A stretch of 64,000 bases of DNA from Pseudisothecium myosuroides (taxonomy: Eukaryota; Streptophyta; Bryopsida; Hypnales; Lembophyllaceae): NCBI GenBank assembly GCA_951799445.1, contig OX637297.1:8742001-8806000 (forward strand), written 5' to 3'. The notes beneath the pieces were generated by a model that was not told where the DNA came from, searched no databases, and was given only the letters and a program-made list of their open reading frames with translations. This document shows, piece after piece, positions 28,105 through 64,000 of this stretch. Made by a program: the position numbers and the translations under genes. Position 1 is the stretch's first letter. Each line of letters begins with the position of its first letter.

Positions 28105-28356
28105 ACGGCGAAGCTTTGACTTCACATGTTGTGAGTCTATAGAATTTAGATGTGTTTTTCCAAGCACGGCGGAGCTTTGAACCCCCTTTGTTTTAATTTG
28201 TGTCAGTTTGGAGAGAACGGCGAAGCTTTGACTTAGATGTTTAGAAGTCATTAGTATTTTTAGAGAAACCAAAACTACGGCGAAGCTTTGACTTTAGACG
28301 GTTAGGAGTTATTAGTATTTTTGAAGAAATCCAAAAACACGGCGAAGCTTTGGCCT
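28105..28356 (+). repeat. Five dispersed 18 bp repeats in the LTR
   Basis: ACGGCGAAGCTTTGACTT and close variants start at 28105, 28166, 28217, 28277 and 28339, with spacing of 51-62 bp. The copies differ mainly in their last bases; intervening DNA is unrelated. The same array is at 42705-42956. They lie shortly downstream of the probable transcription start, so they could be bound as DNA or act in the RNA leader. Confidence 0.75.
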
Positions 28357-29352
28357 TACTACCCCCAAAACAATTAAGAGTTTCTTTGAACAAAGGTCTC
28401 CTAGGAATTTGAGAGAAAATTCCCACCAAGGTGTATTTTTAAATACATTAAGTTTAGTCTCCTAACACGTGTTTGGAGAATTCAAGTTTAGCCTCCAAAG
28501 TTAGAATTTAAGCCTCCCTAGTTGAATTTGGAAGAAATTGTGAAAGGGTGTCAATCTTATAATTTAGAATGTAAGCATTTAGGAGAAGAAAATTGAGTCC
28601 AAAAGTCGAGAAACCGCATTTGGAAGTCCCAACATTTCCCCCAAAGGGCCTGGATCGACCTGGAGACCAGAATCGAGAGCCCCTAGATCGGAAGCCCAAC
28701 TGAAACGAGGCAAGGGAGCCCCCGAGGTCTGGCCAGTCACGGCATGCCACGTGTCAATGCCACCCCAGCAAGCCAGGGACGGGAAGGGTCCCAGCGAATG
28801 CCGAAGCGCCACGTGGCGACGGGGAAGGAGAGCGCTCCGCCTTGTGCTGCTTGCTCGTGTGGTCTGATCGTTCTGGATTGTCGTTCTGGCCTACCGGTCT
28901 GGCCTTGTGTTGGTCTCTGTATGCTGGCCTATTGGCTTCCGAACTAAAAAAAATTGAGTATCCAGGCATACTTTGGACTCAGGAAAAAAATTGATATTTT
29001 CCCTTGAAAGGAAAACAAAACCTCAAAAAACAAGTAGGATTTAGGAGAAGAGACAAGTAGAATTAAGGAAGATAGGGGGGTGAAGAGGTAGGATAGAAAA
29101 ATTAGAATATCTTAGAGGTAGCGTTTCCATTACCAAAAAGAGCCCAAAAAACATCATAGAAGAAGAAAACCTCTTAGAATTCTCGTAGGACTCTTCAAGC
29201 TCTTGAGCACCACAATTGCAAGTGAGTTGAGAATGGAGAAGGTAGGAGGTTGAAGGAAAATTAGAATTAGGAGGATTTGCTAAGAAATCTTGAAGAGCCA
29301 CTTTGGACCATTAGTTTTTAGATAAAATAATAATTGACTTAGAAGGAGATAG

Positions 29353-29414
29353 GAGTCAATTATTACTTAGAAGTCAAGAGTCAATTATTACTTAGAAGTC
29401 AAGAGTCAATTATT
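29353..29414 (+). repeat. 25 bp tandem repeat in LTR
   Basis: About 2.5 copies of GAGTCAATTATTACTTAGAA plus five more bases, period 25 bp (starts 29353, 29378, 29403). Duplicated in the 3' LTR at 43953. Confidence 0.8.
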
Positions 29415-29574
29415 TATTCCAACTAGTCAACCTTGGGAATAACTAAATAATTGAGTTAGAATAGTGTGAGAAGAAAAAGAAGGAGTAGAGTTAGAAAGAA
29501 AAAGAGAAGTAGGAAAACTTGTATTAGACTACAACCTTTAAGCGGTGAGCAAAATTACCAAGGCACTTTCAAAG

Positions 29575-31935: not shown

Positions 31936-32041
31936 AGCAGCTAGCTCAGTAGTTTTTGTGTGGAATGGTTTTTATACTTGTATATATATTTTTGGATTTG
32001 TTTGGTGTGAATTGAGACTCATCTACTAACAATAACTTTAA

Positions 32042-34036: not shown

Positions 34037-34195
34037 GATACCCCCTATCCTCTTCCAATTCCTAGGGTCAAGTCCAAAAAACGCAAAAGTAGCAATCTTT
34101 CCGTCCCATATAATTTATGGGAAGATCTAGCTAGAGCTAAGGCTGATATTTCTTTTGGACAACTGATCTAGTTAGCTCCTAGTCTACGCAAGCAA

Positions 34196-37156
34196 ATGAA
34201 AGAGGGGGCTACGGTTCACCAAACTTCTAAGAGCGCAACCCAAGTCAATAAAATAGAACCGTTACCTGAACATATACGAGCCAAAGAATCATTTGATGCA
34301 GTAGAAATCGACGTTGAAATTGTTGATAAGATTATAACAGGGGCACTAGTAGATGACGGAAGTGGTGTCAATATCATGCCAGCTTTTACTATGGAAAAGC
34401 TAGGCCTAAAAATCACTCATCCATCATACATAACACTTAAATGCGCAGATCAAAGCTCAGTCAAGACTTTAGGCCGAATTAAAGATCTCCGCATACAGAC
34501 TGGGGGGGTAGATTATCTGGTCACGTTTGAGGTTGTCCAATTGAAAGGAGAAGCTAACGGAGGGTATCCACTACTTCTGGGACGTGGATTCCTCCGCCAA
34601 TGTGGTGGAGTAGTAAATTGGGCTGAAAAACGACCCACATTTACCTATGGACCTGAAAATGCCAGAACTATGGTAGGAAGCATTTCTAAAGGACCAGTAT
34701 TGGAAAAAATCCATGAACTACCTTCTGTTCAATCGATTAGGGCAGAAGCTTTGACTGATTTAAGAACCATTAAAGATCTTGGTCCAGGTCTATATGGTTA
34801 CAAAGATGATGGCGCATTTACGCAATGGCTACAAGATCATCCTTGCTCAAGTGACGATGCTTACGTCATTATTGAAGGAGAACCTTCAGGTCCACTTGAT
34901 AAGGAAGAACCAAGAGAAATGCCTCATAGTATTGAAGTGTCTAATAACGATAACACTTTCTTCCTTGAAATGCTATCTGTCCATAGTCCTGACTCAAGTG
35001 AAGAAACTACATTGGCTAAACCTCAAGAAAAAAATAAAGCATGTAGTTTTTGTACCAACCCTTATTCCGGACAACCTTGTGAAACTAACAAGCAATTGCA
35101 GGAAAATGTTAGCAAGCTAAAACTATCAGGTCAATCACCATCTCTAGTTCACAAGGACTCGGAAAAGAGACGGGTTGTTCGACGTCACAAACAAAGGGAA
35201 AATCATAGTCCATATCAATTGACAACCTCTAACGATATGTCCGATGGCCCTATTGCCATTAGGGATTTTCCTTCGGGAACTAGGCCTCCGATTGGTTGGA
35301 TTGCAGGGATTCACGGAGAATATGGGAATGGACCAGGCAACAAAGAAGAATCCCAAGAAGAAACCTCTGTCTTATTGATTACAGGAATTGAAATTGTCCT
35401 AGATGCTGAGCAAGAATTGGAGGATACAACATACAATGTCATTCCATACGGGATTCACAACTCTTCCATATTATACCAACAAACTCTTCAAGTGAATTCA
35501 CTTGAAGAATCGGAGGATACAAAAAAAGACGTATTTTGGGAAGTTGAAACCATGGAGAAAATTCCAAGCTCTTACGGCATACAACAGCTAAGCCCTGTTC
35601 TAAACTCCCTCCTTTGTACCACTCAATCAGATTCAAACGACACATGTACTATTGGTCTAGATCTGTCACGGTTGTCTCCAAGTGAAAGCATTTGCACTAA
35701 GCAACAATTAAATGAATGTGAGGACATAGAGATAATCCAAGATAAAAATGAGTCAGGCTTGGTACCATTGTTAGATGATCTTTCTGTTCAAGATTGTTAT
35801 CTATTAGAGGTTGATGGTACTCAAACCACGGATTGGGAATCTCTCATGTCTGAAGAGACTCTTTTACCTCCTCTCCATGTCCGCAAAACCTCAGAGGGCT
35901 TACAAATAGGGTCAGATATAGCCACATATCCTCCTGTCCCTAATGATTGGTACCATGGACCAAGCGATCCGGTTCACGTACAAGATTCTGACTGGAAAGA
36001 GATTGATGTTTCTTTTCCAGAAGAAGGACCTAAGATGATCAAAATAGGATCGCATCTAGAGGGAGATGAACTTGAGAGCTATAGGTCTTTGATCATGGAA
36101 TACAGAGATGTATTTGCATGGTCTTATCTTGACCTACGAGGAGTCCCTGCACACATTACGCAACATACTATACCTGTACTTCCAGGTGTTGTACCCGTTA
36201 GACAGAGACAACGGCGAATGAATCCATCATTGCAACTTATAGTCAAAGCAGAAATTGAGCGATTATTGCAGGCTAGGTTCATTAAACCCGTGGAAATTAC
36301 GGAATGGGTTTCACCCATGGTCTTAGTCAAGAAGAAAAATGGTAAGCTTCGAGTATGCGTAGACTATCGCCAACTAAACAAACATACCCGAAAAGATCAT
36401 TTTCCTCTTCCTTTCATCAATACTATTGTAGATGAAGTAGCTGGCAATGAATTGTTTACCTTCATGGATGGATATTCCGGCTATAATCAAATCTCGATAG
36501 CACCTGAGGACTGGTTAAAAACAGCCTTCATTACCCCATGGGGCACCTTTATCTATGTTGTGATGCCTTTCGGTCTCTGCAATGCTCCATCGGCATTCCA
36601 GAGAGTGATGTCTTTCGCATTCTCAGACCTACTGCATAAATCGATGACAGTTTATATCGATGATTTTAGTACCCAGTCTACCAACAAAGACCATCTATTA
36701 TGGGTACGAGAATGCCTTGACCGATGCAGAACTACAGGCATTGCTTTAAACCCTTCTAAACTGTTCTTAGCAGTTAAGAGAGGGATCCTACTCGGATATG
36801 TAGTATCTAAGGAAGGAAAAATGGCCGACCCTGAAAAGGTGGAAGTTATAATAAACCTTCCTCCGCCAACAAATGTTAAAGGGGTGCAACGAGTCTTAGG
36901 ACATACGGGATACTATCGCGATGTTATAGAGGATTATGCTACTCAAGCATTACCTCTAACAAATTTGATTAGGAAATCTGTTAGATTTGATTGGACTCCT
37001 GAGTGCCAGCAACACTATGATGAGCTTAAAAGAAGACTCTCAACTGCGCCGATCTTAAAAGCTCCTGACTGGAACCGTCCGTTCCATGTATATTGTGACG
37101 CCTCTGCAGTAGCAGTAGGCGCCGCACTATGCCAAGTTGCAGAAGATACGGGTTGA
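34196..37156 (+). pseudogene. pol: Pol: protease and reverse transcriptase, ends at a premature TGA
   Basis: Open from just after the TAG at 34169 to a TGA at 37154-37156. Residues are counted from 34196. The protease shows ALVDDGSGVNIMP near residue 50. A long weakly conserved linker spans about 200-640. Reverse transcriptase starts near residue 655, with KLRVCVDYRQLN, FMDGYSGYNQI, MPFGLCNAPSAFQRVM and the catalytic YIDDF at about 820-824 (YVDD in most relatives). The thumb/connection shows LGHTGYYRDVI. RNase H begins with FHVYCDASAVAVGAALC just before the stop. The stop falls between RNase H strands where an Arg or Lys codon is usual. The lineage is non-chromoviral Ty3/gypsy, with Athila/Tat-like traits (DDFS, LGHTGYYR). 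Confidence 0.9.
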
Positions 37157-38068
37157 GAACACCCAATTGCTTATGCTAGTCGCCAATTAACACAAGCAGA
37201 GCGCAATTACAGTACCACTGAGAGAGAATGTCTTGCTATGATATTTTCAGTCAAAAATTACCGACATTATCTCCTCATGAACCAAATAGTCTTCTTTGTG
37301 GATCATATGGCAATCAAATATCTGGTCAACAAACCAGAGCTTAGTGGTAGACTAGCTCGATGGGTTTTGTTGCTCTCAGAATTTGATTATACGGTGGAAT
37401 ACAAGCCCGGCAAAAAACATTTGAGAGCAGATCATCTATCTCGATTGTCCATGGATCTTGGGATTGAAAACATTGATGATGAATTTCCTGATGATCGCCT
37501 CTTTATGGTGAGAGCTGTGCCAATTTGGTATGAACATCTTGCACAGTTTCTAAACTCCCAACAATATCCTGAGGGTTTAGACAAAAATGAACGTCGAAAA
37601 ATCCGGGTTAATAGTACTCACTTCGCCCTAGTGGCAGGTAGGCTATGTCGGCGTGGTATTGATGGGATCCTTCGACGTTGTGTGTCCTATGATGAAGTGG
37701 CATCTATTCTTGAAGCATGTCATGATAGTGCATGTGGTGGCCATTTCTCTGGCCGGCTAACTGCTCAAAAGATACTTCGAGCAGGTTATTTTTGGCCAAC
37801 CTTGTTTGCAGATGCGGAAGCCCATACAAAAGGTTGCGATGCTTGTCAAAGGTACGCACACAATGATACGCGCCTTGACCTTCCACTGCATCCCTTTCTA
37901 CCCATCTCTCTTTTGGAAAAATGGGGTATTGATTATATTGGTCCCTTTGCTCCAATTTCATTGCAAAGAAATCAATATATCATTGTAGCCACTGAATACT
38001 TGACCAAATGGGCAGAAGCTAAGGCAGTAAAGAAAGCGGATGGAAAACAAACTGCCATTTTTCTATGA
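37157..38068 (+). pseudogene. pol: Pol continuation: RNase H and integrase N-terminal half
   Basis: Continues in the same frame as 34196-37156 immediately after the TGA. RNase H is recognised by HPIAYASRQLTQAERNYST and TERECLAMIFSVKNYRHYL, then DHLSRL near 37431-37448. The integrase zinc finger is H-x6-H (HDSACGGHF) and C-x2-C (CDACQ), followed by the first catalytic Asp in IDYIGPF (codon at 37931). A one-base deletion in the T/C-rich stretch at about 38055-38066 moves the rest of integrase to the next frame, and this frame stops at 38066-38068. Confidence 0.88.
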
Positions 38069-38771
38069 AAATATCATATCCCGCTTCGGTTGTCCAAAAA
38101 TCTTGGTCAGTGATCGAGGTACCCACTTCCTCAATGAGACTATCGAACTCATGACTGAGATGTTTCGCATCAATCACCGGAAGACCACACCTTACCATCC
38201 TCAAACTAATGGACATACGGAAAGGGTTAATCAAACCTTGGTTTGCATTCTTCGGAAAACCGCCACTGACAGCAAACGAGATTGGGATATCAAGTTGATT
38301 CCGGCTTTATGGGCGTACCGCACAACCTATAAGGTAACAACACGAACCACGCCCTTTGCATTAATGTATGGAATTGAAGCTATACTACCGATCGAGTTTG
38401 AGGTGCAATCCTTGCGCATCGCCATTGACGAACGTTTAGACGATACTGACTCACTACGAGACCGCCTTGAGCAACTGGAAGCATTGAGTGAGTCTCGAAG
38501 ATTGGCATCTCAACATGTAGAAGCCATCCAGCGTCGAAGAAAGGTAGCATTTGATAAACAAAATAAGGTCCGTACTCTTCAACCGGGCATGTGGGTTATG
38601 GTGCAAGATGCTAGAAAAATGGAATTTCCGGGAAAATTTGATGCTTTGTGGACTGGCCCTTACATTGTAAAGGATGTGTTCCCTAACAATTCCTTGCAAT
38701 TAAAAAACTTGGATGGTTCAGAATTTCCAACTCGAACCAATGGCAGCCGTTGCAAGGAATATAAAGTGTGA
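38040..38771 (+). pseudogene. pol: Integrase C-terminal half, shifted frame
   Basis: Overlaps the previous frame by 29 bp. It carries the second catalytic Asp in LVSDRGTHF (codon at 38112) and the Glu in TERVNQTL (codon at 38220), giving the D-x35-E spacing of integrases. A coiled segment rich in Leu, Arg and Glu follows. The C-terminal GPY/F module reads WTGPYIVKDVFPNNSLQLKN. No chromodomain follows; the frame ends at 38769-38771. The Pol terminus is therefore complete apart from the frameshift. Confidence 0.88.
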
Positions 38772-39519
38772 AAGATAAAATCAGTCTTCAATTATTCATG
38801 GTTGCAATCTTCTTACACATGTCAAAATTAGCAAGATGGTAGATCAAAAGCTTCAATGTGAAGCTACCTAAAACCACCTACTATTGTTAGAAGATTAGCG
38901 TAAAAAGGAAGGCTCATAAAACCTAATCCATGAATCTCTCACCAAATGCCAATCTGTCAAACTACTGGCGCTTCTTTTCTATGAACCGCCAAAATGACAA
39001 CTGGCTAGAGAAGTGTTTAAATTTGCCAACTGATCTAGTATAAAAGCAAGAGGAAACTCTTGTTTTGAATACTAGCAGTTGGCTTGTTGCAGGTATAGTA
39101 GATAGAACGAATGGACCACGGGAGGTATCGTCCGCCATTAGTCTTTCCAGCGGGAGCATTTAGCGTTAGAATTTGTTGTATAGAGAAGCACAACTTCACG
39201 CAGTATCTTATTTCTCATTTTGGGGTTAGATTTCTTAGACAGATTATGCAGCACCCTTGGCCTATATTAGTTCTGGTAGTTACGTACGAGGAAACATGGG
39301 ATTGTGTGATTTATGTATTATACTAGGTCATTTTGAGAGAAACGAGAGGGCTTGGCCAACAAAACCCAGTATATATTTCTATCTGACTGTTTCTATCTCT
39401 CTTTAGTCCAAACTTGCTCCGTCGAGGGAGGAAGGCCGGTTTGAAATCTTTTTTGTCTATAGGTCCAAGCCAACTCCATTTGGGGCGGACAACTAAAGGT
39501 TTAGAAGAGTATAGGGAAG
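38772..39519 (+). other. Retrotransposon 3' untranslated segment
   Basis: No coding support. It contains two units of the TCCAA...GGCGGA-type repeat (39404 and 39460), which recurs at 40471-40680. Confidence 0.5.
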
Positions 39520-40134
39520 ATGGGCCAACCAGACCAAGCCCAGAGGGCATCACCCTCGACATCACAACCTGAGGAGCCTACTCCTATAACACTAACATTG
39601 ATACAGACCACACCTGACAATGCTCTAGAAGCATTGCCTTTGACACCAGTCTTTGAGGAACCAGCACCCGAATCTTCGGAAGAGGTAACATCACGACCTC
39701 TAAAAGAACCAGCATCAGAGCCTCTACATGAACCAATCGCCCAACCAACAGACGAAGAGATTCCGGAGGAGATTTTGGCTCTGTCTCAGTTGCCAAATAT
39801 ACGACGTCGACCACGTGAAGAAGCAGAGCAGCCCGGACGTGAAAACCCCTTGGAGCGAATCCCTCTGGATCAAGAGGTCCAGGGGCCTTGGCCACCAACC
39901 AGAAGATCCTTGATGATCTATTTGGAAAATGGAGTAGATGCTGTAACCGGGTTGGAGGTTATGCTTGAAGGCCAATTTGCAAACATGGATGATTTTTCCA
40001 CCATCACTCGAAATCCAATTGTGGATGGTCAAGAATTCACTGTGTTGGGTACCCTTAACATTTTATCACGAGAACGGCGGGCTATTTATATTTTGGAAGC
40101 AATGCTTCAACTCTTAGCATTCTTCGGAATGTAA
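39520..40134 (+). CDS. Additional 3' ORF of the retrotransposon, unknown function
   Basis: 204 codons, same strand as gag-pol, between integrase and the 3' LTR. Residues 1-95 are Pro/Glu/Ser/Thr-rich with a short PEST-like repeat pattern (EEPTP, EEPAPE, KEPASEP, HEPIAQP). Residues about 125-204 look globular (RRSLMIYLENGVDAVTGLEVM, then an Ile/Leu-rich end, LEAMLQLLAFFGM). No zinc finger, transmembrane helix or envelope feature is seen. Extra 3' frames occur in Tat and Athila elements but I cannot show homology. It is flanked by copies of a ~58 bp repeat, so it could have been acquired as a cassette. No damage is visible in the frame. Confidence 0.5.
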   Translation: MGQPDQAQRASPSTSQPEEPTPITLTLIQTTPDNALEALPLTPVFEEPAPESSEEVTSRPLKEPASEPLHEPIAQPTDEEIPEEILALSQLPNIRRRPREEAEQPGRENPLERIPLDQEVQGPWPPTRRSLMIYLENGVDAVTGLEVMLEGQFANMDDFSTITRNPIVDGQEFTVLGTLNILSRERRAIYILEAMLQLLAFFGM

Positions 40135-40147
40135 ATTGTATGTTGTT

Positions 40148-40155
<8 letters not shown>

Positions 40156-40187
<32 letters not shown>
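40156..40187 (+). repeat. 32-base A tract
   Basis: An uninterrupted run of 32 A residues 21 bp after the 3' ORF stop codon and immediately before the GC-rich Pol III-like unit. It may be a fossil poly(A) tail or a SINE/retroposon junction. Confidence 0.9.
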
Positions 40188-40189
<2 letters not shown>

Positions 40190-40400
40190 GTCGGGAGGGG
40201 CGTCGGTATATAAGCCGCCGCAGCAGTTCGACGGACATCTTCAGCTGCGGCAGCTCGGTGGCGTGTAGAACACAGGCCCTCAATTACCATCCCGACGACG
40301 AGGGTTCGAACTTTGGACCGTCGTCGGGGGCGCCACCCCCTGAGCTAGTGACAAGACGGCAGGAAGCTACTGACTACCACGGCTGGAGACACCTTTTTGA
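40188..40400 (+). mobile_element. Candidate tRNA-related SINE / Pol III unit
   Basis: A sharply bounded GC-rich segment in an AT-rich 3' UTR. A-box-like CGGCAGCTCGGTGG lies at 40248-40261 and a strong B box GGGTTCGAACTTTGG starts at 40302, about 41 bp apart as in tRNA-type promoters. A TATA-like TATATAAG lies upstream (40207), and a T5 run at 40394-40398 could terminate Pol III. No clover-leaf tRNA could be folded with confidence. It could alternatively be part of the element's own UTR. Confidence 0.4.
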
Positions 40401-40973
40401 AGGAAGCTCCTGAACATTTGAGGTCTTAGACCCTCTTCCTTTTGTTTTTTCTTTTTCTTTTTTCTTCTTTTAGTCCAAACTCACTCCGTTGAGGGCGGAA
40501 GGCGGGTTTTGAAATATTTTTTGGCTTTAGGTCCAAATTTGTTCCATCAAAGGCGGACAGGGAACTTTCTTCTATCTTCTACCTCCCCCTTTAGTTCCAA
40601 ACTCACTCCGTTGAGGGCGGAAGGATGGATTTTTACCAGTTATTCTCTATAGATCCAAATCAACTCTGATTGAGGAGGATGGGAAAAGACAGGAAAATTA
40701 AAAACTAGAAACAACATAGAAAATTAAAACAAAAAAACAAAAAAACAAAAAAAACAAAAAACCTTGGATCTTCATCAAAATCTTTTCCAGTTACTAGTCA
40801 ATGTCTTCTATCCTTATCACTCCTTAGAAAACAACTAAAAACTAGATATATCAAAAACAAAGCAAAAAATTGTCTACAATTTTATTAAGCTTGTACATTG
40901 AAAATAGGTGACCGTGTGCCCAATTCTAGATAACAACAAGAGACTCTAGCTTCCTCCGCAGACGGCCGCCATA
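40401..40973 (+). other. 3' UTR of the retrotransposon with repeat units
   Basis: Four further copies of a ~58-61 bp unit (TAG(G)TCCAAA...CTCCGTTGAGGGCGGA) start at 40471, 40529, 40592 and 40650. A CA-rich low-complexity stretch (A5C repeats) lies at about 40728-40762. No clear polypurine tract directly abuts the 3' LTR; the nearest purine-rich runs are the GAGGGCGGAAGG repeats. Confidence 0.55.
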
Positions 40974-43900
40974 TGTGAGCTCCCTGTTTGTCACTTGGGA
41001 CTCACAATCATCTTTTTTCTGTTTTTAATTATTTTGAGTGTAGTTTTATATACAAAAAACCCAAAAAAGAGTGTAAAACCAAAATATGTATGTCACATGC
41101 TATTATAGGTATTTGGTCTTAAATAGAGTATTTCCCTAAATTTAACTAATTATCACATGTAAATAGGATAGAAACCTGTGAATTGTACAAATTGTAGATA
41201 TTTAGTAGAAAAGGCCAATTTACCTGAGAATACCATGCATGTGACAAAATTTGGCTAAAATTGGTCCGAGAGAACTTGGTGAGAAACCTAGAAGCCAGTT
41301 CACGGATAGGTTTCAAGTTCCAATCAATTTTCACTTTCCGTAGAAACTCCAATTGTTAGCTTGCAGGTTGAAGAAACGCAGCACAACCTGATGAAGGAGG
41401 TTTTATATTCAAAGACGATATTTTAGGGATAAATTACATTGGAAGCTTGATGGCAAAGTTGCTTTGCCGAGAGTTCTTTCTATGTAAAAGACTCCCTTAA
41501 ATTGACAATTAAAGGAGATTGTAAAATTTAATTCTCCCTTGACCATTGTGTAAGTCAAGAGATGGACTTACACACCTTTTGTAGAATTCAATGAGAGATT
41601 CTGCAAGAAGTTTCGGAATTTTTTGATCCTCAGAAGATGCTTTTCCGAACGGTCAACCGCCAAAACCTAAGATGGGAAATTCTTGGAAATTACCCAGGTT
41701 GCGGTAAAATCTCACTAAAAATTAGAATAGCTTCTTTTATGTTAATAAGACGCTCCAACAAGTTTCAAGGTATTCCGATTGCCAGAAGTACCCGAATTGA
41801 CAAGATTCTCCTTGTACCGGCAAAATTGAAGATTACGGTGGGAGTTGACCGGCATCCCGGGAGCATACGAATTCGGAATAGGGTCAAAATTAGGTCTTTC
41901 CTTACTCCCTCAAACCTACTAAAGAGCCTAGGCTAGTTACTTTTCTCAGAAAAGTCAAACTCCAGGAACTGGGTTTTTTAACCCATTTTGGTGTTTAGTT
42001 AGCGCTAAGTTTTATTGAGTTTTTGACGTCAAATTAGGGGGTAGAGGGACCCTTGGACTAAAAATGGCCTTCTGAAGCTAATGGCGCAATCCGTTTGTGA
42101 TTTGGAGTTAATCTCCAAAAGTTAGAAAATGGTCCAGTGTAGAAAGTCAAAATTGGTAATTTGAGATTAAAATCTCAAAAGATAGGTTTACCGCAAAGAA
42201 ATGAGAGAAGGTGGGTGCCCTTGGAAGAGTATTTAAGGGGCACCTCTTCTCCTCTCAACTCACCCCTTTAGGTTCATTTTGAACCTCTTTTCAAGTTTTG
42301 GGTCCATTTAGTTGGATTTTGGCCATTTTAGGCCACGTTGCCAAACTCTTGTGTTTTTGGAGCATTTTTAGCTCCATTGTCACTCTTTTTCAAGCTCTCT
42401 TGAAGGACATTGGGGTCCCTTCAAAAGCTTGCCTTGATTTTCTTGTGTTCTTGTGTTTTGTTGAGTTGTTTGAAACATTTTGTTGAGGTTTGAGAAGTTG
42501 TACTAATCCTAGTGGATTCCTCCTTATGTCCGGCTTGCCGCTTGAGGAACCTCTAGTGTCTAACCTTGAGTTTTTCTTTGGTGGATTAGAGAGTGACTAA
42601 CTTGTGTTTGGAATACTATCGTACTAACCGCTACTAACACATGTAAGTAGGTGTGTTTTGTGGAAACTAACCCTTGTTGCCTTTGTCCCCGTATTTCCTT
42701 TTGCACGGCGAAGCTTTGACTTCACATGTTGTGAGTCTATAGAATTTAGATGTGTTTTTCCAAGCACGGCGGAGCTTTGAACCCCCTTTGTTTTAATTTG
42801 TGTCAGTTTGGAGAGAACGGCGAAGCTTTGACTTAGATGTTTAGAAGTCATTAGTATTTTTAGAGAAACCAAAACTACGGCGAAGCTTTGACTTTAGACG
42901 GTTAGGAGTTATTAGTATTTTTGAAGAAATCCAAAAACACGGCGAAGCTTTGGCCTTACTACCCCCAAAACAATTAAGAGTTTCTTTGAACAAAGGTCTC
43001 CTAGGAATTTGAGAGAAAATTCCCACCAAGGTGTATTTTTAAATACATCAAGTTTAGTCTCCTAACACGTGTTTGGAGAATTCAAGTTTAGCCTCCAAAG
43101 TTAGAATTTAAGCCTCCCTAGTTGAATTTGGAAGAAATTGTGAAAGGGTGTCAATCTTATAATTTAGAATGTAAGCATTTAGGAGAAGAAAATTGAGTCC
43201 AAAAGTCGAGAAACCGCATTTGGAAGTCCCAACATTTCCCCCAAAGGGCCTGGATCGACCTGGAGACCAGAATCGAGAGCCCCTAGATCGGAAGCCCAAC
43301 TGAAACGAGGCAAGGGAGCCCCCGAGGTCTGGCCAGTCACGGCATGCCACGTGTCAATGCCACCCCAGCAAGCCAGGGACGGGAAGGGTCCCAGCGAATG
43401 CCGAAGCGCCACGTGGCGACGGGGAAGGAGAGCGCTCCGCCTTGTGCTGCTTGCTCGTGTGGTCTGATCGTTCTGGATTGTCGTTCTGGCCTACCGGTCT
43501 GGCCTTGTGTTGGTCTCTGTATGCTGGCCTATTGGCTTCCGAACTAAAAAAAATTGAGTATCCAGGCATACTTTGGACTCAGGAAAAAAATTGATATTTT
43601 CCCTTGAAAGGAAAACAAAACCTCAAAAAACAAGTAGGATTTAGGAGAAGAGACAAGTAGAATTAAGGAAGATAGGGGGGTGAAGAGGTAGGATAGAAAA
43701 ATTAGAATATCTTAGAGGTAGCGTTTCCATTACCAAAAAGAGCCCAAAAAACATCATAGAAGAAGAAAACCTCTTAGAATTCTCGTAGGACTCTTCAAGC
43801 TCTTGAGCACCACAATTGCAAGTGAGTTGAGAATGGAGAAGGTAGGAGGTTGAAGGAAAATTAGAATTAGGAGGATTTGCTAAGAAATCTTGAAGAGCCA

Positions 43901-45431
43901 CTTTGGACCATTAGTTTTTAGATAAAATAATAATTGACTTAGAAGGAGATAGGAGTCAATTATTACTTAGAAGTCAAGAGTCAATTATTACTTAGAAGTC
44001 AAGAGTCAATTATTTATTCCAACTAGTCAACCTTGGGAATAACTAAATAATTGAGTTAGAATAGTGTGAGAAGAAAAAGAAGGAGTAGAGTTAGAAAGAA
44101 AAAGAGAAGTAGGAAAACTTGTATTAGACTACAACCTTTAAGCGGTGAGCAAAATTACCAAGGCACTTTCAAAGATGGCGGACCAAGAATATTTGGATGA
44201 GCTCATCTACAACACGGCGGATGAAGCTCAACTTGAGGTAAATTACTAACTTTTACCTTTCCTTTGCAATTGTTTAGATTAGCAATTAAAACACTTAGCC
44301 GAAACTTCAATGTCGATTCAGAGCGTTTAGATTAGGATCTTTCCCAAGTTTATCCATTGAAATTGGTAGATTAGGATTAGAGCTCTCCGAAAACATCTTA
44401 AACTTGGAATTCCGACTTAAAACAAAGGAGTTAGCCTAGGATGAAGTTTAGAGTAAAACTCGGATGAAGAATATTTAGAAGTGTCCAAGTAGAGGTTAAT
44501 TAGAGAATTAGCAAGTAGAAGTAATTTGGGTCATAGGAGCAAAATTAAAAGTGGATTTCATAATTAGGATTAGTAGTAATTGACGGATGAAGTTTGAAGT
44601 ACCGATTAGCGGTCAAACTTCATCCATCAACAACTTTTGCTAGGAAAGGTTTCAAATCAAGTTAGGGACCATTTTGGAAAGCTCAAATTAGCCTCTTCAA
44701 GGAACAAACTTCAAAATACTAAAAATAGTAACTGACCGGAACTCGTTTCAAACTTCAAAGAACAAGGGAAGGTAGAATTAGGGCATCTACACGTGAGTAA
44801 GGAAGGAATTTAGCATTAGAATGTTAGAGTAGTAACTTCAAGGGTTCCGCTCGTAGTTCAAACTTCGGGAAATACCCATTTAGTTAGAAGGAATGGAAGG
44901 ATGAAGTTCGGGTTAGGAAACGGATGAAGTCAACTTAGATTAGATTAATCAAGACCAAACTTAGGATTTAGATAGTGTCTAACCACTCTACTTTAGTGTT
45001 CAAATTTTGTGATTAATTGAAATAGGGAACAAGTCTAATTGAATGGATGAAGTTTAATTAGCCCTAAGAAGGCTAAACTTCATCCACCCATATCTTTTGC
45101 TAGGAAAAGGGGATAGAGTCGAGTTTTATGTTTTTAGAAATGGCATGAAATTCTCTACAACTTCGGGGTGCTAAATTTAGACTGTAGCAAGGTTGTTTAA
45201 AAACCACCGTGGCTTGTTTCACTTGAAGTAGCTTAGGTAGAAACTGGAATAGTTGCATTTTGCTTGAGTTTAATTCCAATTGTGGGTATTTAGGAACTTT
45301 AGAAAAGATCCATTGCTTGGAAGGCACAATGGACCGACATTAGACACCCGTAGGACCACAAAATCCCACTCTAATGCTAGAACCTGGTTGTGCTCGACTA
45401 TTTACCAAGGGTGGGTAAATAGGCGCTCACA
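40974..45431 (+). mobile_element. 3' LTR of the retrotransposon (4458 bp)
   Basis: Same length and ends (TGTGAG...CTCACA) as the 5' LTR, with every internal feature displaced by exactly 14,600 bp. The only difference noticed is C at 43049 against T at 28449. Near-identity implies very recent insertion. Confidence 0.95.
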
Positions 45432-45436
45432 GGACC
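45432..45436. repeat. Target-site duplication GGACC (right)
   Basis: Second copy of the 5 bp duplication at 26369-26373. Joining the flanks with one copy restores a continuous codon series of the minus-strand DUF7869-like gene. Confidence 0.95.
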
Positions 45437-46907
45437 CCATCAGTGTCCACGTAGAACTTGAATAGGTGCATCTCCCCAATCCAATTAATTTTCCCTGCGA
45501 TCGCATTGGTAACCCTCCACAAATGACTTGAAATCCCCACCGGGTCAAAACGAAGTAATAGGAGCCACTGACGACATGCTTTGTAGTGCTTATTGGGCTG
45601 CTTTGGTTGAAATTTGAATTTTTATTTTTATTCATTTAGCTCTTGGAATGCCTAAACATTCATGTATAGCTTCATTTATCTATTTATTGTCCATGAACGT
45701 CATTAAAGTGGTTATTTTACATCAAATTGAGTATGATTTTCATCTTTTATATTTTCATTAAGCACTGGTTACATGCTTAATTTGGAGGGATTTTGTACTT
45801 AATTTAGATGAAATAATGATATCAAAGACTATACATAATTCAAATGTGTCACTATAACAATTATGATTATTGAGGTATGTTTTTTTTGGACAAATCCAAA
45901 CAAAATTGAGCTACACAATCAATAATAACTTCAAAAAAGCAGTGGTTACGTCAAAGTTGGCTTCTATTACCTCGTTTTGACCCCACCTCCTATATGAACT
46001 CTGGCATAATTGATAGTTCTTGGGACTGCATGAAGGCTTTTATGAGGTCAGCGATGACAAAAGTGTTCTTGGTCTTCAAGGCCTTGGAAAGGTGGCTGAA
46101 ATATGCATCGATGTCCTCATGAGTGTGTCCGATTAGTAGAAACCCAACCTGAATTTCCTTGAAGACACCTCGTGCAGTGAGCAAGGATAAGAACGCCATC
46201 AGATATTTGTTCTTGTTACCCTTGGCAGAGTTGTCAAGCTGAAGATATAAATTTTCAGGAAGGGGGGTACTTCCGACCCGAGCTCCAGGTTCGGTGAGGG
46301 TTAGGTTGTCCATACATCTAGACTTTCCTCTAAGCAGTGCCTCGAACAATGAGTTAGCCGGCAGATATGGAAAGAGGTCGCCTGCCTCTCGAATAGATGG
46401 ACCCTCCAGTCGGCGCAACAACCTCGCCAAAGACGAAATGGTGAAGTTGGAGTCCGCTGGCCAGCAAGATGGAGCATAATGGGCGTAAGCACCGTCACCA
46501 TGGCCATGAGCTACCATTCCAGTAACACTCATCGGAAGCTGCCCCAAACCGGCCATGGCCTTTGTTGTCACCCGCAGTCTGGGTCGAGCCGTCTTAAATG
46601 TATCCATCTTGTCGTGAATTATACATAAAATTCTTCGAGGATCTCGTTTGGATTCCTCACGCCAAGACACATACAAACGACGGCAAGAAGCTTGGTGATT
46701 GAAATGATGAGTCCGCTACTTCACGAACTCCACGTACTTGGGGCTTCCTTTCGGAGACTTCAGAATAAACTGCTGTAGATCGTTGCACGTAGTACATTTC
46801 GCAAACAAACTTCCAACAGGCTTAATGGAGACGTTGTTGAAGTGCTCCCGCTTGAGTCTACTAGTAGTCGACTAGCTCACGGGCGGCAGACCGTAGTCGG
46901 CATTCAA
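45437..46907 (-). pseudogene. DUF7869-like gene of element 1, central part
   Basis: The minus-strand frame from 46907 matches the copy at 61991-64000 over its core. It has a zinc-ribbon-like CTTC pair, IIHDKMDTFKTA, VTGMVAHGHGDGAYAHY, LQLDNSAKGNKNKY and LLIGHTHEDIDAYF. Conserved acidic residues in HDKMD, QLDN and HEDID make an RNase H-fold (DDE-like) active site plausible; that is inference. Premature TAG codons lie at 46872-46874, 46716-46718 and 45990-45992. The MITE at 45542-45983 interrupts the frame. A frameshift follows before the IAGK motif and the LTR insertion point. Clearly inactive. Confidence 0.8.
45542..45983. mobile_element. 442 bp MITE inside the DUF7869-like gene
   Basis: Terminal inverted repeats read GGGTCAAAACGAAGTAATAG on the left and the complement of GGGTCAAAACGAGGTAATAG on the right, about 26 bp with two or three mismatches. 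CACC flanks both sides (45538-45541 and 45984-45987), suggesting a 4 bp duplication. The interior is AT-rich and non-coding. Homology to the intact copy (LIEEVPDFKAF) resumes across the insertion. Confidence 0.75.
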
Positions 46908-47072
46908 CTGCACATCCAAAACTGGTATGCTTAAGTATTGGTACGAGCGAAGGGGAAGGAATGCAAATGACAAGCAATGCTCCAGAACAATGATCGTGAT
47001 ATCTTACGATCATTGATCTCGTCGGGAGATTGCACGATCAATAAAGCAGTGACAGGAGATTAGGGGCACTAC
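46908..47072 (-). other. Predicted 165 bp intron or insert in element 1, absent from element 2
   Basis: Bounded on the minus strand by GAG|GTAGTG and TGCAG|TTG, phase 0. The exons on either side join where the other copy reads INEVNAAFGLP without interruption. It contains two palindromic sites of the array family, 46994-47009 (TCGTGATATCTTACGA) and 47022-47037 (TCGGGAGATTGCACGA). Confidence 0.55.
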
Positions 47073-48350
47073 CTCGTTGGCGTCTGCTTGGACTCGTTTC
47101 CAATTTCTTCCGGGAGGAAGGAATTTTAGAGTGTCCGTTCGCCTGTTCCCGATGCCGCGCATTTGGTGGGGCATTTGATCAGCATTCTCGTCAATAATGG
47201 CTTTCACAGTCATAGTGACCTGAACAGTCCGAGTCCGCGGGCGCTTAATCCCTTTGTTTTTGTGTGTCCCTGATACGCCGTCGTTGTACATCTCGATGTA
47301 ATTGTGGTAAGTGGACTTTGGAATGCCGTGAATTATGTACCACGCCTTGCCACAAACATCAACTCCCTATAGCGTGATGTATTTCCGCTTCCCCTCCCTG
47401 TACCTTTCGTGTAGTTGTCCTCCCACTCCAATCCCATATTCACGGTGTTCGTCAAACGACTTCAAGTAGTACTTCTGCTTTACTAACAGCGTGAACTCCT
47501 GGTTATAATGCTGACAACACAGACTTCTGCAGCACTTCTCCGAGCTGACTTTCCGAATTTCCTCATCTGCCGTTTTCCGGGAATACTGCGATTCCTTCAG
47601 TTCCAGATTGGGTTTGCAAACTATAAACCGGTATGGTGCTTTCATTCTACCTCCGAGGTAAGCGAGAGGGTCGTTGATATCGGGAATGGCGGCAAAATGA
47701 TCCACTGTCTCCTTCAACGAACGAACGTTGGAAAACCAGCACTCCAAAATTGGCCACTTGTCGTGAGACATTATGGCTTCGGTGTCACACACAAAAACAT
47801 CGAGGACTGTCACACCTACGAAACCTTCACCAAGTGTTTTGTCTTGGAAATGATCCTCCGGCCTCCAACAAATGATACGATCCGAGGAAACAAGGAGTTC
47901 GTCGGTGTCCTTCCGATGCACATCAAGTCCAAACCAGGCTCCTTGACGAATATACGGACATGGATCCATCGGGGGATCCCTTGACGCTCTAACAACGTCG
48001 GCGGCTCTCCACAACACTACATTCTCTTGAACATCCTCTAATGTGTTCATACCCCTCTGACAGGGAAAGCATTTCAAATCCTGGAATTCTAATTTGATAG
48101 AATGAGGTTGCACCAGAATATAAATCCAAGGCTCAACAGGTATGGGCACACCCAGCCACTCGCCCTGGGGATGAACCTCTTTAACAATCCCTGATCCAAC
48201 TTCACTGAATCTAGGCACAAACAGCTTAACCCAATCACCATTCACAAACGCTTCACATCCACCAATGGAATCTTGTGATTCACCCTCTACATGCGTTCCG
48301 TCCACATACGGAACTATCGCGTCAGCAGCAGACTCACAGAATGAATCCAT
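47073..48350 (-). pseudogene. DUF7869-like gene of element 1, N-terminal part
   Basis: ATG at 48350 opens 327 codons to a TAG at 47367-47369. The same frame then continues (GVDVCGKAWYIIHGIPKSTY, then a basic GIKRPRTRTVQV) to the splice-like border at 47073, joining the element 2 homology at ADQMPHQM / ADHMPHRT. The first 300 residues have no recognised fold. They include FVNGDWVKLFVPRF, QDLKCFPCQRGM and a Cys-rich EKCCRSLCCQHYNQEF near residues 272-287, which could bind zinc. The single TAG replaces a probable Gln codon. The start is chosen because stops lie just upstream and because palindrome cluster C begins 162 bp upstream. Confidence 0.65.
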
Positions 48351-48511: not shown

Positions 48512-49188
48512 TCGTGGGATCTCACGATCACACGGCAACACAACATGAACAAGTGAATCTAGTTATTGTCATCAAGAAGTTCGAAAGCCCAGACGTGATA
48601 GTGCGATCTCACGAGGGCCGTTACAGAACCACTGGCAAGAAGCCAAGGCATCCAGAAAAACGTCACAAACTTTAGAAGACATTAACCAAAGAACGTTCAG
48701 TACGTCGTGGGATCCCACGACACTCCTGGCGCTCAATCATTTAAACCAGAGATCGCAGTATCCCAAGATCCTCCTCAAGAATCATAGAGACCGCTACAGA
48801 AATACAAATGAAGTAGTGGGTCAAATTGAATCACTCTGACGAGTCTCCGACACATTATCAATCAATCGTGGGGTCCCACGAGAACGGCATCGTGTAATTT
48901 CCGATAGAGTGTTTGTGAACCCCCCTGAGTAGGAGAACCTAGTGCCAACCGAAAACGTGATCATGAGATCCCACGATGCTTATACAAGATCGACGAGGAG
49001 TATGACGATCACCAAAAAGTGAGGCGCCTATAAGTACACAAGAAAGGCCACAACCAAGGTTTAATCAATTGTGGGATCCCACGACGAAATGATAGGAGAT
49101 CCCCCGATTACCAAACCGCGATATCTCTATACTCTAAGATTGAGAGGTCTCGCCACGCTCTATACGCAGAGATCGTGGGACCCCACGA
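48512..49188. repeat. Palindrome cluster C upstream of the element 1 gene
   Basis: Sixteen-bp sites of consensus TCGTGGGATCCCACGA start at 48512, 48599, 48705 (perfect), 48753, 48866 (one central change), 48961, 49069, 49092 and 49173. Main spacing is about 87-113 bp. Most variants change the centre yet keep the outer CGTGG/CCACG. Intervening DNA is unrelated. They occupy the 5' flank of the minus-strand gene, where subterminal transposase-binding repeats or regulatory operators would lie. Confidence 0.85.
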
Positions 49189-59042: not shown

Positions 59043-59721
59043 TCGTGAGATCCTACAACAGGGCAATCCTTGTATAGATTCGAGTATTGTAGGACCCCTG
59101 ATTTGAAACCCTAGCCGCCGACCACTGCGCCGCCACCCGATTTTTAGGGTTTGTAGCCCATCGTGGGATCCCCCGATGAGGTGGTGTGGAGACGCAAACT
59201 ATACCCAGACCACATATTAGGCACAGACTAGGCAGCGGATTAGTAACCCATCGTGGGATCCCCCGATGGAGGATAGTAAAGACCGCACCTGACCCAGACT
59301 TAACAATTAGTAAACCACCTACTTAGAGCATTCAAGTACTAAACCGTTGTGGAAAATCACGACGAGAAAGTCTAGCGTGGGTAGAAAAATTGAGATGCAG
59401 GCGCGTTAATAAATAGCGCTGATTATGTGAACAATCAATCGTGGGATCCCACGACAGACAATAGTTTCACAGATCATCACCGATCTACTTCTAAGATATT
59501 CCAATCTCTATTCTATGTTCATTAGTGCCGTCGTCCTATACCAGGACGCCTTCAGTAAGTGAATTGAGAAGCAGTAACCTCCTGCCCACTACTGTCCGTG
59601 AATGTAACCGATCGTGATATTCCACGACAACGGTAGTTTGTAAAACCTGATCATCAAAATGATCACAAAACCATTCCTTCTCTTCCAAGATCTAAATAAT
59701 GGCTATCGTGGGATCCCACGA
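59043..59721. repeat. Palindrome cluster D, left of the ParB-like gene
   Basis: Sites start at 59043, 59161, 59251, 59347, 59439 (perfect), 59612 and 59706 (perfect), with a degenerate candidate at 59531. Excluding the first interval of 118, intervals are 90, 96, 92, 92, 81 and 94 bp, so the array is close to a 90 bp period. Two members read TCGTGGGATCCCCCGA. The last site lies 36 bp before the ATG at 59757. Confidence 0.9.
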
Positions 59722-59824
59722 CTAAGGATGAAATTTAAAGTTGAAACGGGAATAATATGGAGGAACCATCTGCTCTATCGAACAATGTCGAAACTAACAT
59801 CTCCTTCTACCATGCTGCAATGAA

Positions 59825-61165
59825 ATGCAAGTGGACGAAGGTCCAGAAGAACTGACACCAAGGAAGCTTGGTACCTTCATTGACTACTACATTACTTCTA
59901 TGGAGTATACAGGTTCACACCCACCAGCAGACCTTTTTCGGTGCGACAAGCAGATTATACATTGGGGTGTCGCCTGGAAAGCAGAGAGTGACGGCTCCGC
60001 CATTATTCTTCCCACGCTGATGAATGGAACGATGGGGCACCCGACTGCCGGACTTAGGGTACTTGAAATGAAGGGGCTTGACGACAACACAACGCTCCTA
60101 GTTGTAGAGGAGAAGGTTCCCCTTTCCGGGGAGATCATAACGTTTGGGCTGATCCTTGACTACGCGAAGTTCAGCCTCACTCTGTGTGAGTCTCTGACTG
60201 CAAGGGCACATCTGATGTGCAAAGACACGTCTAAGCCTCGGTGGAAGCCTAAGGAGCTGAAGAACCAGTGAGACATAATCATGGAAGACTTACGAGAGAC
60301 GAACGCTCCTCCCTAAGCCGTCACAGTGGTTGCTTCCACGCCGTCCCCCAAAAAGAAGACCAAGAAGAGGAAGTCTACAATTGGTGCTCCCGGGGACGAA
60401 GATGATGCCGCAGCAAGGACATCTGGAAAGAAGAAAAAAACGGAGACCCCGCTTCCGCTTCACAGGGCTGTGGCTCTAGGGGACGCAAACGTGAAGAAGA
60501 TGACACCGAAAGAGATGAATGCGATGAGGACCTTGTATGAGAACTCCTTAGGTGGCCTGTACAAATGGGGTAGGAAACCAATCTGTGACAGCAAAGGAGA
60601 GCTCATCCGCGTGCACTATGATTATCTGCACCATGCACCAGTAGCACTGCTCGTGTACAGGGGAATTCAGGCAGAGCGGCTTGATGCGCTGATGAGGAAG
60701 GCACAAATCACACCTGATTATGACTCGGAGAACAGAGTCATAACAGTGCTTCCTCTTAAAGCGGGACCCTACAGCCTGGCGCAGGTAGTGTCGTACTATG
60801 AGAAGCAAGCACCAAAGAAAGAGATCTTTGAAAACCCCAAGACGCACTACTACGTAATAAGTGGCCAGCACACTGTCCAGGCATTCAAAGACCTGATTAG
60901 GCTTGGTGTGATTCCCGAGAAAGACAAGAAGCAAGCCTCCACCTTTAATATTTTACCTGTGTGGACCGACAAAGATCACCACGGAGACCTACTACACTTC
61001 TCGCAGGCACTGAACCAGGATGTCGTTGGCGAACAGAAGGAGCAGAACTTCATGAAGCAGTTGCTGAACGCGAGAATCAAATGGCGGAGTATAGGAAGTC
61101 CACAGCCAGCACTATTGGGCAGACCACACTCAGTAGAGTACAATGTAAGAATGCCGCCGGAGTAG
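59825..61165 (+). pseudogene. ParB/sulfiredoxin-like protein of element 2, broken by two stops
   Basis: One frame from ATG 59825 to TAG at 61163-61165, interrupted by TGA at 60269-60271 and TAA at 60314-60316. Both are one C-to-T change from a sense codon. Part 1 (148 codons) has HWGVAWKAES and LVVEEKVPLSGEIITFGLIL and no known domain. Part 2 has a Lys-rich probable nuclear signal (PKKKTKKRKS), then a region resembling a ParB/Srx fold: a substrate-loop-like THYYVISGQHTVQAFKDLI (compare G-x-x-R/H-x-x-A) near residues 173-191 counted from 60326, and HFSQALNQDVVGEQKEQNF. An alternative upstream ATG at 59757 (MEEPSALSNN) lies in another frame and may be the original start before a frameshift. It converges on the gene at 61991. 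The fold call is tentative. Confidence 0.5.
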
Positions 61166-61211
61166 ACATATTTACTATTTGTAGGTCATCAGAGGGTGCC
61201 CAACCTAACCA

Positions 61212-61356
61212 TCGTGGGATCTTCCGATCGTCCTACACTACACCTCAGACCTTCATTACGTTAGAACCTCGTCATCCTGGGATCCCACGACGAAGTCCTA
61301 GCTTTGCGATACGGGGTAGTTCTACGTTAGAATGTGGCGATCGTGATATCCCACGA
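61212..61356. repeat. Palindrome cluster E, between the two genes of element 2
   Basis: Sites at 61212-61227 (TCGTGGGATCTTCCGA), 61275-61290 (TCCTGGGATCCCACGA) and 61341-61356 (TCGTGATATCCCACGA), spaced 63 and 66 bp, just 3' of the ParB-like frame. Confidence 0.85.
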
Positions 61357-61990: not shown

Positions 61991-64000
61991 CTAACGATTT
62001 GCAGCCAAACTTTGCTTGATGATTTCAATTTGAGCAGGAGGAATCTTGATCTTGCAGTGTGCAGTATCTTTCTTGGTCCTACACTTCCACGCTGTCATAA
62101 CAGCATCCGTGTGCTGCCAAAGTGGTAGTTCCTTTGCATCAATCTCCCAACGTAGACCTCTGCCGTTGTCCCATCCAGTGTAGAATTTTTGAATATCGTC
62201 ATCTATAGCTGTTGGACGGAAGTACTGAATGCGCACAGAATTTGGATGTAGTGGATCAACAAAAGGATCAGACAACGCCCTTGCAATCCACACTGGGTTC
62301 AACTCATTTTCCGCGGGAGTAATCGCAACAAAATAGCCTTCGAAGAGATCTCGAGCCACCCTGAAGGACGGTTGTGGGCGACCACTCAATGGCCCGATGT
62401 ACACATCATCTTCCCCAAACTCTTCACGATCCTCTCCATCGCTGTCTAATTGATCAACCCGAGTCGCCTGAACACGAGTAGTCGGCCAGAAGCCATCCTT
62501 CAAAACAGTAGAGTCAGGTAGTGGTTCTTCAAGTGCTACCTTCACACCACGCCAATAGTGCACTATATGCTCCAGTCGTCTTCGGCATTCCCCGGTGCGG
62601 TCTTGGTTGCACAAGTTCTCCCAGTACTTAATAAACGCGGATATACCCTTCACAATGTCTGCCTCAGCTTTCATTGGGACTGGCAGAACTGCCTGTGGTA
62701 CTCCACGGGGCCATAAACTTTGCCCCTCCGAATCCTCATGCCATAATTTAATTCCGCCACCTGCGCCTGAGGGCAACCAATCTAGGTCAGTGCACAACAA
62801 TTTGTACTTCATGACAGGACAACCCGTTGAATCAAGGTAGAACTTCACTTGCTGGGGCTTTGTGTGCCCAATCATGATATGACTGCCGGCCAAAAATTTG
62901 CCTGCAATGAAAGCCTTGAAATCAGGCACTTCTTCTATAAGATGGGGGATAGTAGGAATGGTTTCTACATCCATGAACGACTTCATAAGCGCAGGAATTG
63001 TCAGGAAATTTTCCTTCTTCAACAACATGCTCCATCTTCCAAAGAGCGCATCAATGTCGTCATGAGTATGACCCACAATCATGAAGTTCACATACACTTC
63101 ACGAAAAATCTTGTTTGCAACCAGTAGAGACCAGTAGCAAAAAACGTATCTGTTCTTGTTGTCCCTAGCGGCATTGTCCATTTGCACATTCAAAATGGGC
63201 AGCAAAGGCGTTGCTGGAACTAAGGTCTCCGGTGGCGGGGGGAGTGAGGCTTCACACATTTCCGCGCCCTTCAGAAGCGCCTTTGACAAATTTGTCGACC
63301 TTGCCCCCACAAACAATTGTCGAGAAGAAGACTTTGGCGGCAATTCCAAATCTCGCAATAACTTTGCCATGGAGCCAACGGTGTAGTTCGAATCTTTAGG
63401 AAACATTTCCAAGCCATAATGCGCGTACCGAACATCACCATGACCATGCGCAATCATGCCGGTGACAGCAACAGGCAATTTCGTGAGCCCGTCCAGTTCT
63501 TTAGTCTTGTGAGAGAAGACCGGGGATGCAGTTTTAGATTGGTCCATCTTGTCATGCATGATTGTCAAACACTCATGTGGAAAACTGTGCAACTGGTAAC
63601 GGTTTGCATAATACAGCTCCCTATGCGCCTGAGCAATAGCCAAGTGTCTATCTAGCCTCCTTGTCCATTTAAGAGCGCTTTCAGATCCGACAAAACAACT
63701 CTTCCGTATCTCTTGTAATCTGTCACACTCCAAACACCGAGCAAAGTTATCTCCAGGCTTCTTAACCTTGTACTCCGGGAACTTTGAGGACCTAATCTTG
63801 CTCAAGTTTGAAGTTGAAACGTCCGGCAATCCGAAGGCCGCATTTACTTCGTTGATTTCTTTCATTTTACCCTTCCATTGAAAGGTAGTGGGGAGACACA
63901 TGGAGACGACTTTGTCCCCTGACTTCAGAGTTCGGGTACGATGTGGCATGTGATCCGCCTCCTTGTCGAGGATGCACTTCAATGTTGCCGTGGCTTGTTC
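61991..64000 (-). CDS. DUF7869-like protein of element 2, open, 5' end beyond window
   Basis: An uninterrupted minus-strand frame of over 660 codons from the window edge to 61991. Residues are counted from 63982, which is an internal codon; the frame stays open to 64000 with no start seen. A Cys pair CLEC lies near 83-86. The conserved core runs from IMHDKMDQSKTASP (Asp144/147), through GMIAHGHGD and the QMDNAARDNKN motif (Asp269), to MIVGHTHDDIDALF (His305-Asp311). Acidic residues on three successive blocks suggest an RNase H-fold DDE-type enzyme. That is inference; the family is, from memory, the one labelled DUF7869. The C-terminal third has IKYWENL, an acidic hinge and a tail domain shared with 25500-26228. 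Absence of stops contrasts with element 1 and suggests recent activity or selection. Confidence 0.7.
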   Translation of the reverse strand, partial: EQATATLKCILDKEADHMPHRTRTLKSGDKVVSMCLPTTFQWKGKMKEINEVNAAFGLPDVSTSNLSKIRSSKFPEYKVKKPGDNFARCLECDRLQEIRKSCFVGSESALKWTRRLDRHLAIAQAHRELYYANRYQLHSFPHECLTIMHDKMDQSKTASPVFSHKTKELDGLTKLPVAVTGMIAHGHGDVRYAHYGLEMFPKDSNYTVGSMAKLLRDLELPPKSSSRQLFVGARSTNLSKALLKGAEMCEASLPPPPETLVPATPLLPILNVQMDNAARDNKNRYVFCYWSLLVANKIFREVYVNFMIVGHTHDDIDALFGRWSMLLKKENFLTIPALMKSFMDVETIPTIPHLIEEVPDFKAFIAGKFLAGSHIMIGHTKPQQVKFYLDSTGCPVMKYKLLCTDLDWLPSGAGGGIKLWHEDSEGQSLWPRGVPQAVLPVPMKAEADIVKGISAFIKYWENLCNQDRTGECRRRLEHIVHYWRGVKVALEEPLPDSTVLKDGFWPTTRVQATRVDQLDSDGEDREEFGEDDVYIGPLSGRPQPSFRVARDLFEGYFVAITPAENELNPVWIARALSDPFVDPLHPNSVRIQYFRPTAIDDDIQKFYTGWDNGRGLRWEIDAKELPLWQHTDAVMTAWKCRTKKDTAHCKIKIPPAQIEIIKQSLAANR

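Follow-up and report, generated by a model that had tools for sequence, protein, structure and literature searches.

Which protein would read a 16-bp palindrome that recurs in ordered arrays on both sides of a decayed ParB-like gene in a moss genome? The locus lies in a 64,000-nucleotide stretch of Pseudisothecium myosuroides (GenBank assembly GCA_951799445.1, contig OX637297.1, positions 8,742,001 to 8,806,000), which we call the window, and a preliminary description of positions 59043-61356 had proposed that the ParB-like protein encoded there pairs with the palindromes, as part of a plant mobile element with a centromere-like or operator-like repeat system. As judged from its sequence, the window contains a moss DUF7869 element twice, as elements AB (25.3-49.2 kb) and C (59.0 kb to the window end), both with palindrome arrays. 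With a probability of roughly 0.6, the palindromes are putative binding-site arrays of a protein encoded by the elements themselves, which would belong to a moss DNA-transposon family that carries DUF7869, with a ParB-fold accessory in one copy or more.

The consensus of the palindrome is TCGTGGGATCCCACGA. Nine sites with three or fewer mismatches lie within 59043-61356 (those not marked weak in arrays L and R, Table 1), and two weak palindromes, 59347 and 59531, with five mismatches each, fit the roughly 90-bp register of the left cluster. The two clusters described earlier are thus borne out, the count of ten good sites is not, and the spacings given for them (90, 96, 92, 92, 81 and 94 bp on the left, 63 and 66 bp on the right) are correct if both weak sites are counted. 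Across the window, 19 sites have three or fewer mismatches against 0.08 expected from shuffles, and none of 100 shuffles reaches that number. Elsewhere in the genome, 25 stretches (250,000 bases, a small sample of a large genome) have no such sites and five scattered ones with exactly four mismatches; these stretches match none of 145 DUF7869 and ParB-like proteins at E 1e-4, and thus serve as a background control only.

Sites that the preliminary description had not listed, all outside its interval, are found at 25336, 25377, 25418, 46994, 47022 and 47969 and in 48512-49188. A symmetrised matrix built from 18 sites yields R-TCGTGGGATCCCACGA-Y and adds weaker sites, 25377 among them; it scores 8 or more at 27 positions in the window against 3.4 in shuffles. 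The top scores of 20 random sequences range from 6.7 to 20.4, and since 25377 (15.4), 46994 (18.1), 47022 (17.2) and 47969 (16.4) all fall below that maximum, they are singly not above chance by the matrix and only their placement argues for them. The palindrome at 47969, with three mismatches, lies within the DUF7869 reading frame of element AB and may be chance. Two variants, 59161 and 61212, are changed in one arm only. CpG occurs in the arrays at 0.95 to 1.4 times its expected frequency, compared with 0.67 times across the window; the two CpGs of the consensus are part of the reason.

By tblastn, DUF7869 coding sequence occurs at 25593-26381, 45969-47843 and 62000-64000, all on the minus strand. 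We considered and rejected three copies: the two on the left are parts of a single gene, interrupted by a long terminal repeat (LTR) retrotransposon and an insert resembling a miniature inverted-repeat transposable element (MITE). When the flanks of the retrotransposon are joined in silico, a single match to P0070 crosses the joint, extending over residues 644-891 where it had covered 659-891, and rising from 65.9 to 75.1 bits. With the nested retrotransposon recognised, element AB is seen to have arrays on both sides of its DUF7869 gene, a three-site array 67 bp past the end of the reading frame and a seven-site array that begins 162 bp upstream of its first ATG. The palindromes at 46994 and 47022 sit in a gap between coding matches to P0065 (46982 and 47097), which is possibly a DUF7869 intron. 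Element C is laid out as array L, the ParB-like gene, array R and, on the opposite strand, a DUF7869 gene that runs off the window. The arrays occupy non-coding gene flanks, including the stretch directly upstream of coding frames.

What is common to these arrays is the palindrome and little else. Mean pairwise identity was taken over 22 sites selected for their resemblance to the consensus, without the weak 48753, 59347 and 59531. It is 0.80 within clusters and 0.78 between clusters, figures that the selection inflates, against 0.25-0.27, the random level, in the 30-base flanks on either side, a figure that it does not inflate. Compared at low stringency, the DNA of 44500-50500 and that of 58000-64000 share 24 listed matches with E below 1, of which two are DUF7869 coding DNA (59% and 62% identical), 21 contain the palindrome and one, 49967-49998 with E 0.8, belongs to neither class. 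Short symmetric words retained in otherwise unrelated DNA are, on the sequence, the mark of protein-binding sites and not of a satellite. That one 16-bp word is common to elements whose main proteins are 26-40% identical points to a conserved and easily found binder.

The DUF7869 gene accompanies the arrays in both elements. PF25273 (DUF7869) matches the protein of element C with E 1.8e-41 (142.3 bits against a curated cut-off of 26) and open reading frame (ORF) 45990-46676 of element AB with E 1.2e-38 (133 bits against 26), as it does all 27 aligned members. The proteins of AB and C align with 40% identity across 309 positions and with 26% across 283, and that of element C is 80% identical to P0026. 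The family has many moss members, with at least 120 matches; the organisms named among the matches listed are Physcomitrium patens and Ceratodon purpureus, at 48 to 68% identity and 65 to 100% query coverage. In the model, a stretch resembling CPxAWxxIxGVSxATFYRY, which 26 of the 27 aligned rows reach (one in part), forms a pair of short helices at 235-242 and 246-257, with a predicted local distance difference test score (pLDDT) of 73-87. Weak helix-turn-helix (HTH) matches occur in the same 27 rows, one to a resolvase HTH_7 (E 0.23) and one to an Xre-like HTH (E 0.12), with match positions within the proteins not given. The acidic residues D427, D552 and D594 (P0026 numbering) are invariant, as are other acidic residues; in the model D427 and D552 follow strands and D594 lies in a helix, parts of that region being poorly modelled. 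A transposase fold is absent from the matches listed in a fold comparison of the model, and no literature was found under the name DUF7869, a moss protein family on which the arrays offer a handle.

The ParB-like reading frame spans 59825-61165 and does lie between the two palindrome clusters, as had been described, but it is a single frame that two in-frame stops interrupt. It encodes, in order, an N-terminal part, a lysine-rich linker that resembles a nuclear localisation signal by eye, and a ParB/sulfiredoxin (Srx)-like domain. The C-terminal part of the gene is probably missing, since the frame runs into a likely splice donor, GTAAGA at 61145, where similarity ends in the 13 of 25 homologues that extend so far; no downstream exon is recognisable by eye in the three frames of 61100-62000, nor do the homologues found supply one. 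Structure prediction gives the family a ParB/Srx fold, and not an unrelated one, and sub-threshold sequence matches on the GGQH motif accompany it, which supports the ParB/Srx likeness first suggested from a GQH motif. None of 24 members matched a ParB-named Pfam or NCBIfam model with E values as high as 10, in a search whose HMMER filters drop most matches above E 0.1; the sub-threshold matches of the family are to DUF6551 and PHROGs 1033. ParB proper carries the nucleotide-binding motifs GExR and ENxxR, in place of which the family has GGQHT and LNQNxxG. The catalytic Cys of sulfiredoxin sits in a GGCHR motif, and it occurs in none of the 21 rows that cover this position (Q in 19, M in one, Y in one).

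Within the window, ParB-like matches are confined to element C by tblastn, and element AB has none. Outside mosses, in scans that reach close relatives only, P0002 was not matched in phages and the DUF7869 protein P0029 gave no pattern match in viral contigs; P0006 had eight pattern hits in viral contigs and 23 in GTDB genomes, none confirmed, and two chance-level matches in plasmids (E 4). The 16-mer palindrome has no exact match in viral contigs.

If the arrays are bound as we propose, each palindrome would, by its two-fold symmetry, be bound by a dimeric DNA-binding protein that the element encodes, and ordered arrays near promoters and gene borders would favor cooperative binding. The bound protein would control the element's own promoters by autoregulation, would mark the element for transposition, assemble or protect it, and could shield it from silencing, much as TNPA and VANC act at their own sites. 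We infer from this analysis the binding itself, the identity of the binder and its function. The likeliest binder is the DUF7869 protein, an assignment we make at somewhat less than even odds, because both elements pair arrays with its gene and part of its sequence resembles a helix-turn-helix. Next, as a tentative candidate, comes the ParB-fold protein, which might bind the arrays itself or be loaded onto them; the DUF7869 protein stands slightly ahead of it, given that no ParB-like gene is in view in element AB, where arrays are present. DUF7869 elements that lack a ParB-like gene may be served in trans.

Several observations weigh against this interpretation. It draws on two elements, both damaged, one of which runs off the window. 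The helix-turn-helix reading of DUF7869 is weak, and the copy in element C stops short of the stretch in question. In the ranges tried, the DUF7869 elements showed no terminal inverted repeats that were convincing, and as the ends are undefined, the mobility of the elements, which we infer, rests on the size of the moss family. The mobile element of the preliminary description is supported by its DUF7869 gene and the many moss members of that family, with no ends recovered. Its pairing of the ParB-like protein with the palindromes fares less well, since element AB has the same arrays with no ParB-like match, which makes the DUF7869 protein at least as good a candidate.

A ParB-fold protein acting as the specific binder would be a clamp that is loaded at the 16-bp palindromes and covers the element, serving transposition, escape from silencing or inheritance. 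We regard this as possible but doubtful. The fold is predicted and the gene lies between two arrays, yet element AB carries the same arrays and the window has no ParB-like match outside element C, the nucleotide-contacting arginines of the ParB motifs are absent from GGQHT and LNQNVAG, no helix-turn-helix is recognised in the exons at hand (downstream exons being missing), and the arrays are unlike parS. The consequences would be considerable: were this protein the binder, a bacterial-type DNA clamp would act on plant chromatin. A bolder version, in which a sequence-specific clamp in the plant nucleus loads on the transposon's own 16-bp arrays, spreads, keeps the element active or marks it for transposition, and serves several diverged DUF7869 elements in trans from one copy, is speculative and rather unlikely; if true, a bacterial-type operator or loading system would have been re-invented, or inherited, in a moss mobile element. 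The same protein might instead be a DNA-modifying accessory, whose missing exons would encode a DNA methyltransferase, like that of the ParB-methylase proteins in algal transposons, which the arrays would target to the element. The probable loss of its C-terminal part leaves room for this, but no methyltransferase is among the eight ORFs scanned with Pfam and the search for exons in 61100-62000 by eye found none, and we consider it improbable.

Other explanations look beyond the element's own proteins. A host transcription factor that the elements exploit for their promoters would suit arrays upstream of coding frames, and conservation of such a factor would explain why the sites are retained across diverged elements; on the other hand, arrays also lie 3' of genes and the 250 kb of host DNA sampled, a small part of a large genome, contains no site with three or fewer mismatches, so that we hold this to be quite unlikely. 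The perfect two-fold symmetry and the many ordered copies could also suggest palindromes that form hairpins when single-stranded and are used as a replication origin or by a nicking enzyme. We give this little credence: the palindrome is uninterrupted and leaves no loop, no replication protein is among the eight ORFs, and the one-arm variants would break a hairpin and not necessarily a half-site. Local duplication may account for the pair 59161 and 59251, whose flanks are alike, and chance, or the remnants of a duplicated satellite, is nonetheless refuted for the arrays by the 0.08 sites expected and by flanks that are random over the 22 sites together.

Plant elements that carry operator-like repeats of their own are already known, as TNPA and VANC show, and to call such a system new was too strong in view of the binding arrays reported in PMC5735166 and PMC2613891 and the ParB-like algal proteins reported in PMC12477816. 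In Arabidopsis, VANC21 is reported to bind YAGTATTAY, a motif dense only in VANDAL21, in upstream regions and introns, and to cause loss of methylation (PMC5735166). The moss arrays share with it an element-specific short motif with many non-coding copies that is dense only there and, as proposed, a binder encoded by the element. The VANC motif, however, is described as 9 bp long, in one orientation and spread by tandem repeat formation (PMC5735166), whereas the moss word is a 16-bp palindrome in unrelated flanks, common to elements whose proteins are 26-40% alike, its binding would be by a different protein in a different host, and it is proposed here from computation.

In En/Spm, TNPA is reported to bind subterminal repeats and transposition to need TNPA and TNPD (PMC2613891). 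The CACTA elements resemble the moss element in having a main gene (for a transposase in CACTA), a second protein and repeated, in the moss putative, binding sites in the flanks. CACTA repeats reportedly differ a great deal in motif from one element to the next, in contrast to the symmetric 16-mer; by these accounts the motifs of both TNPA and VANC diverge with their protein, unlike the common word seen here. No TNP2-type transposase was found, DUF7869 being the sole significant Pfam match in the proteins scanned, nor were CACTA-type inverted ends, in the ranges tried and with element C running off the window.

Among systems with a ParB-like domain, ParB-like accessory proteins are reported in transposons of brown, green and red algae, including the ParB-methylase proteins of Ectocarpus Sola1-1, where the domain likewise belongs to a eukaryotic DNA transposon and lies on the strand opposite the main gene (PMC12477816). 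The moss element differs in its DUF7869 gene, its host, its palindrome arrays and in that no methyltransferase is seen, in a gene whose C-terminal part is missing; the string 'palindrom' is absent from the main text of PMC12477816. According to a 2025 survey of the ParB-CTPase fold, eukaryotes have it most commonly as sulfiredoxin; the survey's main text nowhere contains 'plant', 'moss' or 'transpos' (PMC12704722). The literature searched held no published ParB-fold gene in a moss or in a DUF7869 element, and no palindrome arrays beside such a gene.

Sulfiredoxin offers the same superfamily fold in a eukaryote, and the moss family lacks its catalytic Cys. Bacterial ParABS shares with the moss system a ParB/Srx fold (here predicted) and 16-bp palindromic sites near the gene; the moss system differs in site sequence, in that no helix-turn-helix or dimerisation domain is recognised, in its nuclear host and in arrays that also occur without the gene. 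No ParA is among the eight ORFs scanned. The parS consensus has four matches with three mismatches in the window against 0.45 expected and none in the arrays, which gives the centromere-like reading of the repeats no support. Two of the four are the same place in the two LTRs of the nested retrotransposon, and one is a lone match at 61637 in element C, outside the arrays.

Table 1. Positions in the window of the palindrome arrays, the genes beside them and the nested retrotransposon.
Feature	Position	Strand	Remarks
3' array of element AB	25336..25433	.	sites 25336, 25377 (weak), 25418; exact 41-bp spacing
DUF7869 gene of element AB, 3' part, left of LTR retrotransposon	25500..26373	-	
LTR retrotransposon nested in DUF7869 gene of AB	26374..45431	.	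19,058 bp; not part of the palindrome system
DUF7869 gene of element AB, 5' and middle parts, right of LTR retrotransposon	45432..48350	-	
Two palindromes, 46994 and 47022	46994..47037	.	4 mismatches each
5' array of element AB	48512..49188	.	48512, 48599, 48705, 48866, 48961, 49069, 49173; weak 48753
Array L, upstream of ParB-like gene	59043..59721	.	59043, 59161, 59251, 59439, 59612, 59706; weak 59347, 59531
Decayed gene of predicted ParB fold	59825..61144	+	one frame; in-frame stops 60269-60271 and 60314-60316
Array R, between 3' ends of ParB-like and DUF7869 genes	61212..61356	.	61212, 61275, 61341
DUF7869 gene of element C, 3' two thirds	61991..64000	-	669 aa, open to window edge

The retrotransposon nested in element AB is very young, its two 4,458-bp LTRs being 99.98% identical, and it has the 5-bp target-site duplication GGACC; its frames at 31246-40134 look Ty3-like by eye. 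The MITE-like insert in the same DUF7869 gene (45542-45983) is 442 bp long, with 26-bp terminal inverted repeats that are 92% complementary. Between the two DUF7869 elements, 50980-52514 contains two ORFs of 301 and 131 aa, the longer of which has no significant Pfam match and is perhaps a retrotransposon remnant. A long MITE-like hairpin at 54525-54673 has 50-nt arms that are 86% complementary, with a second inverted repeat within, and 54990-55966 is a tandem array of five to six copies of a unit of about 178 bp, the last three 252-nt windows of which are 96-100% identical.
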